Below are positions 1-20,137 of a DNA stretch of 64,000 nt, piece after piece. The translations under genes and the position numbers were made by a program. The DNA is from a virus. Where the stretch lies: positions 1 through 64,000 of the IMG/VR virus record IMGVR_UViG_3300042562_001598; one strand, 5' to 3'. How positions within the stretch are numbered: position 1 is the first letter of the stretch; each line of letters begins with the position of its first letter. The notes under the pieces were generated by a model. It was not told the DNA's origin. It saw nothing but the letters and a program-made list of their open reading frames with translations, and searched no databases.

Positions 1-189
1 GGGTTTGCGGTTTCCCTAATAAAAAATCGTGCGGAACTTATACTTCTGCGGTAACTTAGAATGAGGATGATGTCCGAATACGTCTTAGGATGGTGGTTAT
101 CAGCTTCCCCATATACAGCTGAATGGGCGGTTATTAACAGCCGATAAATATACGGTTAGGTATAAAAGGGGACTTCGGTCTCCTTTTTT
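1..189 (+). ncRNA. structured non-coding RNA, copy 1
   Basis: This stretch has no ORF but folds into a chain of local stems. Stems are 31-36/44-49 (GCGGAA/TTCTGC), 50-55/96-101 (GGTAAC/GTTATC) enclosing 69-72/81-84 (GATG/CGTC, loop TCCGAATA), 108-112/123-127 (CCCAT/ATGGG) and 128-132/139-143 (CGGTT/AGCCG, loop ATTAAC). It ends in an intrinsic terminator with a C(TTCG)G tetraloop at 168-183 followed by six T. The same architecture recurs 198 bp downstream, with base changes that keep the pairing. Loops and the block 55-98 are nearly identical between copies, so both structure and loop sequence look selected. The promoter and possible further copies lie left of the window edge. I do not recognise the family. 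Strand is set by the terminator. Confidence 0.75.
168..189 (+). terminator. intrinsic terminator of ncRNA copy 1
   Basis: A six-base-pair stem GGGGAC/GTCTCC closes a TTCG tetraloop flanked by C-G, the extra-stable UUCG type. T184-T189 follows directly. It fixes the 3' end and strand of the first RNA copy. Confidence 0.8.
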
Positions 190-198
190 AGACATAAA

Positions 199-387
199 GG
201 GTTTACGGTTTCCTTAATAAAGAATCGGGTGAAACTTATAGTTTTACGGTAACTTAGAATGAGGATGATGTCCGAATACATCTTAGGATGGTGGTTACCA
301 GTTCTCCCGTATAAAACTTAACGGGCGTTTATTAACAAACGAGAAACATACGGTTAGGTAAAAAGAGAGACTTTGGTCTCTTTTTTT
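199..387 (+). ncRNA. structured non-coding RNA, copy 2
   Basis: This is the second tandem copy, with compensatory changes relative to copy 1. Stems are 229-234/242-247 (GTGAAA/TTTTAC), 248-253/294-299 (GGTAAC/GTTACC) enclosing 267-270/279-282 (GATG/CATC), 306-310/321-325 (CCCGT/ACGGG) and 326-330/337-341 (CGTTT/AAACG). At least four helices contain paired substitutions, for example CCCAT/ATGGG becoming CCCGT/ACGGG. Loop sequences CTTATA, TCCGAATA and ATTAAC are unchanged. It terminates at the hairpin 367-380 plus a T run. No ribosome start or ORF longer than a few codons fits it. Function is unknown; abundance as a short late or early phage RNA would be the expectation. Confidence 0.75.
365..387 (+). 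terminator. terminator of ncRNA copy 2, probably bidirectional
   Basis: GAGAC (367-371) pairs with GTCTC (376-380) around a TTTG loop and is followed by seven T. A-rich sequence on the left side gives a T run on the opposite strand, so it can also end the minus-strand gene whose stop is at 390. Confidence 0.75.
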
Positions 388-389
388 AG

Positions 390-1031
390 TTATATAAGGT
401 CTTTAACTTTATAACTTCCTTTTAATTGTGGTGTATCAAAAAATGATACCCCTTTAATTTGTGTGATAAAATTAACTTTATATTTATTTTTATCAAATCT
501 ATATACCTCAACAATTTCTTGATAATTGTTTTTAGTTAATAATAAATTTCTACCTTGACCTAATCTCCAATCTTTAGCGTTTTTTATAAATTTTACGATT
601 GTACTTAAGTTATTAATAAATAAGTCAATACCTTCATAAGTGTCAGGGTTTAAGATTCTACTATTATGAAATTTACCTGGAAGTCCAGTCAATGGGTTTA
701 ATGGTGCGTAGTCAGGTTCTGAATTACGGAGTAATCTTTGTTTCCAGTGATTTGTTAGATTGATATCAAACATAATCTCACAACTTACTTGTCCATTTTT
801 ATTTGGTTGCATGTATTCGTCAGGACAAATCCATTTATTACCATTACTATTCCAATTATAAAATGAATTAACTTTTAAAGTTAATTCTGAATTTAATCTA
901 TTAGGAACATTAACGGTTGACTTACCCTCAATTAATAGTTGGTTAATAAAGTTTTCGTGAAGAACAACTTCTTGTATCGTCATTTCACTTTTAAGTGACT
1001 CCCGTAATATTTTTCTAATTAAATCTTTCAT
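390..1031 (-). CDS. hypothetical protein with capsid-targeting-like N-terminus
   Basis: This 213-residue protein matches no family I can name. Its first 11 residues (MKDLIRKILRE) are a basic amphipathic stretch ending in Leu-Arg-Glu, which fits the [L/I]-x-E cleavage rule of T4-type prohead proteases. The body has an aromatic/Gly region around residues 95-120 and a C-terminal segment of alternating strands (around residues 155-205, including a Thr-Gln-Ile-Lys-Gly motif) that looks like a small beta-rich enzyme or toxin-like fold; that last point is only impression. It is transcribed leftwards from an ATATTTATA element six bases before the ATG, so the mRNA may be leaderless. It converges on the terminator of the ncRNA pair. 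It is probably a late virion-associated protein by promoter type and leader. Confidence 0.6.
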   Translation of the reverse strand: MKDLIRKILRESLKSEMTIQEVVLHENFINQLLIEGKSTVNVPNRLNSELTLKVNSFYNWNSNGNKWICPDEYMQPNKNGQVSCEIMFDINLTNHWKQRLLRNSEPDYAPLNPLTGLPGKFHNSRILNPDTYEGIDLFINNLSTIVKFIKNAKDWRLGQGRNLLLTKNNYQEIVEVYRFDKNKYKVNFITQIKGVSFFDTPQLKGSYKVKDLI

Positions 1032-18556: not shown

Positions 18557-20137
18557 ATGGATTTTTCTTTTTTTACAACCGATAACAAATCAGGGTATAA
18601 AACCACGGAAAAGTGGTTATCTAAAAATTACCCCCAAGTTTACAACTCAATTATTGAGTATACTACTAAATTAGACCTTGAGATGTCTTTTAAGGAGAAA
18701 ATATGGTTTTATTATAATAAGTTAACGGAGAGACCTAAATGTTTAACCTGTGGGAGTGATATTTCTTTTAGAAATAGATTTGACAAACCATATGGGGATT
18801 TTTGTTCATTAATTTGTATTAACGACAATAAGGGTGAGATGATGAAACGACAAAGTAAAACCTTCCAACAAAAATACGGTGTTGATTTTTACCCTAAACA
18901 TAATGACTTTGTTAAAAAACAAAAAGAGACTAAATTATTAAAATATGGTGATGAAAATTTTAATAATGTTGAAAAAAGTAAAATAACTAGACTTGAGAAA
19001 TATGGTGATGAGAATTACAATAATATTGACAAAACCAAAAAAACTTGTTTAGAATTATATGGTGATGAAAATTACAGTAAGAGTAATCATTATAAAAATA
19101 AAATTAATGAAACTTTTAAGAGTTTATATCCGGATGTTAATTTTATTGATATAAAAAAAGAAAAAGTTGTTATAACTTGTGTTAATTGTGGAAAAAATAG
19201 TGAGTTTTCTAAACAACTTTTATATGAAAGACATAAAAGGGGTTATGACATATGTGTTGAGTGTAACCCTATAGGGTTTTCAAGTAGAAGTGGATATGAG
19301 AATGAAATATGTGATTTTTTAGATAGTCTCAATGTGAATTACGAAACAAATAAAAAAATTACAAATAAAAGAACTGAAATTGATATTTTTTTACCGGAAT
19401 ATAACTTGGGTATTGAAATGAATGGTGTTTATTGGCATAATGAATTATTTAAGACTATGGGTTATCATCTACAAAAGACTAATGAATGTAATGAGATTGG
19501 GATTAAATTAATTCATATTTTTGAGGATGAATGGTTATATAAACAAGATATTGTAAAATCTATTTTATTGAGTAAATTAAATAAAATACCAAATAGACTT
19601 TATGGTAGAAAGTGTGAAATAAAAGAAATTACTTCTAAAGAATCAAAAATATTTTTAGAGAATAACCATATTCAAGGGAATGTTAATTCTAAAGTTAAAA
19701 TTGGTTTATTTTACGAATCCCAATTAGTATCATTAATGACATTCTCTAAAGGGCGAATTTTAATGGGCGGTAAAGATACTGAATGGGAACTAAACAGATT
19801 TTGTAATTTGACTAATCATAATATTATTGGTGCGGCGTCCAGGTTAATGAGTTTTTTTGTGAAAAATTACAACCCAAATAAAGTTGTTTCTTATTCCGAT
19901 ATTAGAATTTTTGATGGGAGTATGTATAAGAAATTAAACTTTCAGTATGTGTCAAAATCAAAACCTAACTATTGGTATGTTATAAATGGTATTAGACGAC
20001 ATAGATTTGGATTTAGGAAATCAATATTAATTAAAGATGGTTATGATAAAAACATGACTGAAAAACAAATAATGTTAGATAGGAAAATTTACAGAATATA
20101 TGATTGTGGTAATATTAGATGGGAATTTAATATTTAA
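18557..20137 (+). CDS. homing endonuclease, PD-(D/E)XK type with C-terminal GNAT-like domain
   Basis: This 526-residue protein looks like a free-standing mobile endonuclease. Residues 60-80 contain a Cys-xx-Cys zinc element (Cys-Leu-Thr-Cys-Gly) with a second Cys pair shortly after. Residues about 127-178 hold three repeats of Lys-Tyr-Gly-Asp-Glu-Asn about 19 residues apart, probably DNA-contacting. Another Cys-xx-Cys-Gly ribbon follows near residue 215. The nuclease core at about 272-295 has Glu-Ile-Asp-Ile-Phe-Leu-Pro then Gly-Ile-Glu-Met-Asn-Gly and Tyr-Trp-His, as in Vsr-like PD-(D/E)XK homing enzymes. Residues about 350-490 have strand-helix order and Gly-Ala-Ala-Ser-Arg-Leu, like Mom/GNAT acetyltransferases. 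It is inserted between the tube and chaperone genes; the neighbours are intact. Confidence 0.65.
   Translation: MDFSFFTTDNKSGYKTTEKWLSKNYPQVYNSIIEYTTKLDLEMSFKEKIWFYYNKLTERPKCLTCGSDISFRNRFDKPYGDFCSLICINDNKGEMMKRQSKTFQQKYGVDFYPKHNDFVKKQKETKLLKYGDENFNNVEKSKITRLEKYGDENYNNIDKTKKTCLELYGDENYSKSNHYKNKINETFKSLYPDVNFIDIKKEKVVITCVNCGKNSEFSKQLLYERHKRGYDICVECNPIGFSSRSGYENEICDFLDSLNVNYETNKKITNKRTEIDIFLPEYNLGIEMNGVYWHNELFKTMGYHLQKTNECNEIGIKLIHIFEDEWLYKQDIVKSILLSKLNKIPNRLYGRKCEIKEITSKESKIFLENNHIQGNVNSKVKIGLFYESQLVSLMTFSKGRILMGGKDTEWELNRFCNLTNHNIIGAASRLMSFFVKNYNPNKVVSYSDIRIFDGSMYKKLNFQYVSKSKPNYWYVINGIRRHRFGFRKSILIKDGYDKNMTEKQIMLDRKIYRIYDCGNIRWEFNI

Follow-up and report, generated by a model that had tools for sequence, protein, structure and literature searches.

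The window analysed here, comprising the opening 64 kb of an IMG/VR virus record of 282,192 bp from a giant lake phage, begins with two similar stretches of DNA that contain no protein-coding gene, and the question raised by this locus is what they specify and with what partner, if any, they act. As originally predicted, there are two units at an exact spacing of 198 bp: they align with each other without gaps, and each ends in its own intrinsic terminator, a stem followed by a T run (Table 1). Short ORFs of 28 and 20 amino acids beginning at a conserved ATG were rejected, as they are not kept in relatives; the frame is broken in record G002 by a stop after MRMMSEYVL, and the ATG itself is lost in G004. 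Over its full length, each unit aligns as a single 190-nt RNA, without short tandem repeats. Minimum-energy folding was uninformative (z = -0.29 and -2.07), which is expected because several helices are pseudoknotted. The record begins exactly at unit 1, and it had been proposed that further copies might lie to the left; this is unlikely because contigs L002 and L005, which come from the same or a very close phage and extend further left, have a promoter immediately before unit 1 and exactly two units, without a third in tandem. A further contig, L004, has a single unit carrying the downstream flank of unit 2, which suggests duplication or loss through recombination between the units.

Table 1. 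Features of the RNA locus at the start of the window; R3 is the covariance model of the core.
Feature	Position	Strand	Basis or detail
RNA unit 1 (type 1), with intrinsic terminator (~164-189)	1-190	+	Unit alignment; R3 match 50-130, 89.8 bits
5' hairpin CGGUUU/AAAUCG, unit 1	8-29	+	Unbroken in four type-1 sequences, one-sided variation only
P2 hairpin, unit 1 (stem 31-36/44-49)	31-49	+	Listed paired changes confirmed; two double-change pairs, 0/24 cells unpaired
Core three-way junction, unit 1	50-101	+	Covariation on alignment A5, plus two further types
P3, unit 1	50-56/95-101	+	Listed paired changes confirmed
P4, unit 1	65-67/73-75	+	
GAAUA, unit 1	76-80	+	
P5, unit 1	81-84/89-92	+	
Core H-type pseudoknot, unit 1	102-129	+	S1/S2 covariation; descriptor specificity
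S1, unit 1	102-105/117-120	+	
S2, unit 1	108-112/123-127	+	One half of the H-type pseudoknot; followed by CG
L2 (AUAC), unit 1	113-116	+	
P6 hairpin, unit 1, loop ANUAAC (stem 128-132/139-143)	128-143	+	Listed paired changes confirmed; two double-change pairs
RNA unit 2 (type 1), with intrinsic terminator (~362-387)	199-388	+	Alignment; R3 match 248-328, 97.2 bits
Junction and pseudoknot core, unit 2	248-327	+	Descriptor, covariation, R3 match
Convergent gene encoding 213 aa (stop codon 2 nt beyond unit 2)	390-1031	-	Profile search, structure prediction

All four helices for which paired base changes had been listed are present, unit 2 lying at +198, and they correspond to P2, P3, P6 and S2, the last being half of a pseudoknot. 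The sequence TCCGAATA, put forward as an unchanged loop, is not a hairpin loop: its UCC forms the 3' strand of P4, and GAAUA links P4 to P5 because P5 pairs CRUC with the GAUG that follows. Overall, the RNA family and its helix changes stood, and what had been missed were the pseudoknots, the three-way junction, a third copy in the genome, and the convergent protein neighbour. In order, the family core consists of P3 enclosing a linker, the variable hairpin P4, RAAUA, P5 (CRUC-loop-GAUG), and GU. The pseudoknot after this junction has the form S1(4)-2-S2(5)-AUAN-S1'-2-S2'-CG, the numbers being base pairs for the stems and nucleotides between them. Both units carry the P3/P4/P5 junction with RAAUA, the H-type pseudoknot, and the CG. 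There are slight indications that GGG at positions 1-3 pairs with CCC at 14-16, which would turn the 5' hairpin into an H-type pseudoknot. For type 1, no pairing between the loops CCUAA (15-19) and UUAGG (156-160) is claimed because neither unit 2 nor the G004 copy keeps it.

Relatives were sought in IMG/VR by pattern scans, covariance models, and a structure descriptor. Pattern scans yielded close relatives in L003 (record G002) and L127 (record G004), where the RNA adjoins a gp55-like late sigma factor gene. Both contigs belong to a T4-like lineage that has the huge phages LR745206 and LR756502 (630-640 kb) as relatives (portal proteins 83% and 79% identical). Those two genomes have other sequence between the genes flanking the gp55 locus, which thus provides no clean empty site. 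The window phage and the L003/L127 lineage have almost no detectable protein similarity, yet their type-1 units are ~80-88% identical. The sole protein match between them is a homing-endonuclease-like protein (phrog_3339), encoded in the window at 18557-20137 and again near 234 kb of the window phage genome (G000), with a homologue near the RNA in L127.

The window phage genome also carries a more distant form, type 2, which lies beyond the window at 198972-199152, surrounded by 13 clustered tRNA genes; type 2 occurs as well in G006, a 296-kb relative with a 69% identical DNA polymerase. The tRNA cluster spans G000:194.2-201.8 kb (L134) and includes a tRNA gene whose two-base anticodon is unreadable (L134:16570-16641) and one for tRNA-Phe with the anticodon AAA. 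The window phage also encodes a GOLLD RNA (G000:207804-208211; L135:3804-4211) and a tmRNA (G000:209677-210063; L135:5677-6063, minus strand), and the SmpB gene between them (L135:4789-5241; Pfam E = 1.4e-47) completes a phage-encoded trans-translation pair. A model search of G006 revealed type 3 at G006:27065-27147, which has the same core in a longer RNA, apparently of perhaps 300 nt or more (G006:27.03-27.3 kb; L483/L393). Separately, G006 encodes a full DnaJ-like chaperone (L225:1306-2241). Copies of the family are thus located near the DNA polymerase gene in the main clade, in the tRNA cluster of the phage, and beside the late sigma factor in the huge-phage lineage.

The descriptor is a pseudoknot-only script that was written after types 1 to 3 had been seen, and types 4 (L438) and 5 (L478) therefore constitute its independent test. 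In two phage genomes it returned family members alone, with ~0.3 matches per genome expected by chance; over 4.66 Mb of loci it again returned only members, including the previously unseen carriers L438 and L439, and a looser version added L478 and L479. These new finds have new S1/S2 letters, yet P5 and GAUGGUG occur at the expected position. When the CG rule was dropped, the ten matches whose stems contain five or more G or C were all members and all ended in CG. The R3 model added type 6 in L418, L430, and L431 (31-33 bits), in which the P5 loops are GUAA and GAAA (GNRA) and the stem CGUC/GACG compensates for CAUC/GAUG. Type 6 has the junction, but its pseudoknot loops are longer, and the family is thus not uniform.

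Outside these phages, searches with a specific 28-mer and with a gapped core pattern found no member in 84,980 bacterial and archaeal genomes, and R3 found none in 396 Bacteroidota genomes, a weak search in which few candidates per genome were scored. Blast against named phages gave terminator matches or nothing, and a plasmid search with a type-2 sequence gave no match. Matches to short exact patterns were mostly chance matches in protein-coding sequence, and opposite-strand matches to models R1 and R2 near 20 bits were to terminators rather than to members.

The original prediction would have failed if covariation had vanished once more homologues were aligned; instead, variation preserves the structure across at least six types. 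In the alignment of nine divergent members (A5), 97.8% of helix cells pair and 14 of 20 pairs show double-sided changes, values that none of 500 shuffles matched in either respect; sliding the partner by one column reduced pairing to ~43%. Both S1 and S2 are 100% paired in the nine sequences, with double changes in four of four and four of five pairs, respectively. Because relatedness inflates covariation counts, the test was repeated with one sequence per type: 99% of cells paired, against a mean of 79% after whole 3' strands were swapped, and 0 of 5000 swaps reached as high a value. Within type 1, four distinct sequences include two double-change pairs in each of P2 and P6 and no broken cell. 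The compensatory changes include G-U intermediates.

The promoter of unit 1 lies outside the window record, but TTTG-N19-TATCTTTG, a promoter form used by Bacteroidota, precedes the unit in L002 and L005. The exact sequence occurs six times in the window genome, against 0.1 expected, and TTTG-N19/20-TANNTTTG is present just upstream at most member loci. No such promoter was found upstream in L478, and L003 and type 3 have a -7-like box without a -33 box at the usual distance. In the window clade, the RNA is not the leader of any downstream gene. To judge from sequence, each unit is a gene specifying a structured RNA of ~190 nt, and in that clade the RNA has its own predicted promoter and terminator.

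No unit had a match in Rfam 15 at gathering level, and at E ≤ 5 only terminator-dominated noise was returned for them. Together with the variation described above, this supports the proposal of a new phage ncRNA family, which is well supported on sequence grounds and is so far confined to large phages, probably of Bacteroidota. By "new" we mean absent from Rfam; the RNA may have been sighted earlier, unnamed, in undeposited lists such as that of a human-microbiome set (PMC8040213).

Throughout the DNA polymerase clade, a gene on the opposite strand lies tail to tail with the RNA, ~0-12 nt away. The encoded proteins are homologous yet divergent, being 22-47% identical to that of the window, and the neighbour protein had no match in the sequence libraries searched. 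A profile search of all ORFs of the near-whole genomes G000 and G006 and of 80 relatives found the protein family only beside the RNA: it is present at nine of nine RNA loci and at 10 of 80 overall, although these are not independent events and the association may partly reflect shared ancestry. The tenth locus is truncated by the end of its contig. The type-2 RNAs of G006 and G007 show the same pairing at another locus (39.4 kb in G006, where the DNA polymerase is at 234 kb). A multi-copy gene family also adjoins the RNA locus (L002:4574-5269; further copies in G000 near 108.8, 115.0, 163.3, and 187.5 kb), some copies of which have the domain twice. The RNA is not tied to this neighbouring gene because the G002, G004, and tRNA-cluster copies have no such gene adjoining. 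The neighbour of the type-3 RNA matches a protein of LR745206 that has no RNA beside it.

An AlphaFold2 model of the neighbour protein, of moderate quality (pLDDT 75), resembles the RelE superfamily, to which RegB, the T4 early-mRNA endoribonuclease, belongs. In the PDB, the leading matches were ParE, HigB, and T4 RegB, none significant (E ≥ 0.06); in a Foldseek search of viral models (BFVD), a RegB-annotated protein matched at E = 1.8e-3 (probability 1.00), and three matches had E ≤ 0.001. We regard a RegB-like fold as likely but unproven. An H..R..R motif is present in most of the neighbour proteins, those of type 6 being without H..R; the single-sequence model of the type-3 neighbour (pLDDT 54) was too poor for use.

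The RNA family itself is well supported; for its mechanism, we infer a trans-acting, protein-binding phage RNA that is probably part of an RNA-nuclease module with the tail-to-tail, putatively RegB-like partner, a reading that we hold tentatively and at somewhat less than even odds. The host polymerase would transcribe the RNA during infection from a host-type promoter, and the RNA would act in trans by binding a protein. In the main clade, the most likely partner would be the small protein encoded tail to tail, the two forming an accessory module in which the RNA might, like an RNA antitoxin, hold, inhibit, or steer the nuclease. For members without the neighbour (the tRNA-cluster copy and those of the other huge-phage lineage), the protein would be supplied elsewhere or by the host. 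The convergent arrangement, unlike that of known RNA antitoxins, argues against the module, as do the copies without the gene, the LR745206 protein without an RNA, the moderate model with its non-significant PDB matches, and the type-6 neighbours that lack H..R. The full version of the proposal, in which a promoter-driven pseudoknotted RNA controls or guides a RegB-like endoribonuclease encoded tail to tail with it in a new giant-phage module while unlinked copies act elsewhere, including in unrelated phages, is on balance doubtful.

Control of a RegB-like nuclease is the leading specific proposal because of the neighbour protein, but the location of one copy in the tRNA cluster, together with the unlinked copies, makes a role in the translation machinery nearly as likely. 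The RNA would then stand alone, acting in trans on the machinery of translation or transcription of either host or phage (the ribosome, tRNA processing, or RNA polymerase), and the convergent gene would be a passenger that shares its terminator. We regard this as a serious possibility, if one short of an even chance: a relative sits in the tRNA cluster near the GOLLD, tmRNA, and SmpB genes, an unrelated lineage of T4-like huge phages has the RNA without the protein, and the type-1 units have stayed similar between phages that otherwise share almost nothing. Against this reading, the protein family was found only next to the RNA, and at loci of two different kinds. It is improbable that the RNA, or the RNA and protein together, is a moron-like cassette that jumps between phages and is selected for its own spread; its patchy presence (9 of 80 related loci), its varying position relative to the DNA polymerase gene, and its tandem duplication in some contigs but not in L004 would be consistent with mobility, but no ends, target-site duplications, or recombinase were seen, and structure is under strong compensatory selection in every copy.

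A cis-acting riboswitch or attenuator of the adjoining gene would account for an aptamer-like junction and pseudoknot with an intrinsic terminator in each unit, but it is very improbable, and the orientation of the genes already refutes it in large part: the gene that follows is encoded on the opposite strand, rather than downstream on the same strand as for a riboswitch leader, the terminator ends a gene-less transcript in the members examined, and tandem units each have a terminator of their own. That these direct repeats beside replication genes are a DNA repeat or recombination site rather than RNA is scarcely credible, given compensatory changes that pass through G-U and promoters and terminators in fixed order.

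The preferred RNA-nuclease reading can be set against systems already described. GOLLD and ROOL are structured phage RNAs of unknown function (PMC12286853), and the present family adds a well-supported member to the few such RNAs known from phages. GOLLD is likewise a pseudoknotted phage RNA near tRNA genes (PMC12286853), but many examples exceed 800 nt, compared with ~190 nt here, the junction and pseudoknot are different, and there is no covariance model match. The units, the type-2 copy, and the type-3 RNA all failed to reach the gathering threshold of GOLLD (RF02032); identification of the type-3 RNA as GOLLD was tested and dropped, there being no RF02032 match. ROOL is also phage-encoded, pseudoknotted, and near tRNA islands (PMC12286853), but is ~660 nt, and the units have no Rfam match.

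Type III toxin-antitoxin systems (ToxI, AntiQ) resemble the locus in placing a pseudoknotted RNA, which S1/S2 covariation indicates here, beside a gene for a predicted endoribonuclease-like protein. They differ in that the antitoxin consists of short tandem repeats, which the units lack, and is encoded upstream of the toxin on the same strand, whereas the gene is convergent in every pair found here and the RNA has a separate promoter. The predicted fold of the neighbour is RegB/RelE-like rather than ToxN-like, a distinction drawn without direct comparison with ToxN. T4 RegB is the closest named fold match, at ~12% identity and with no sequence-profile match, and we know of no partner RNA for it. 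T4 encodes its stable RNAs C and D, small RNAs of unknown function, within a tRNA cluster, and they are likened to the family, by description only, in size and setting. The family is of a known kind, that of phage structured RNAs, but has its own architecture, in which unrelated phage lineages keep a compact pseudoknot although their sequences have diverged widely. It also has a candidate protein partner, through which, in contrast to GOLLD and ROOL, function can be approached at once. Should RNA and protein indeed form a module, a nuclease would be under RNA control in a layout that has not been described for type III systems.
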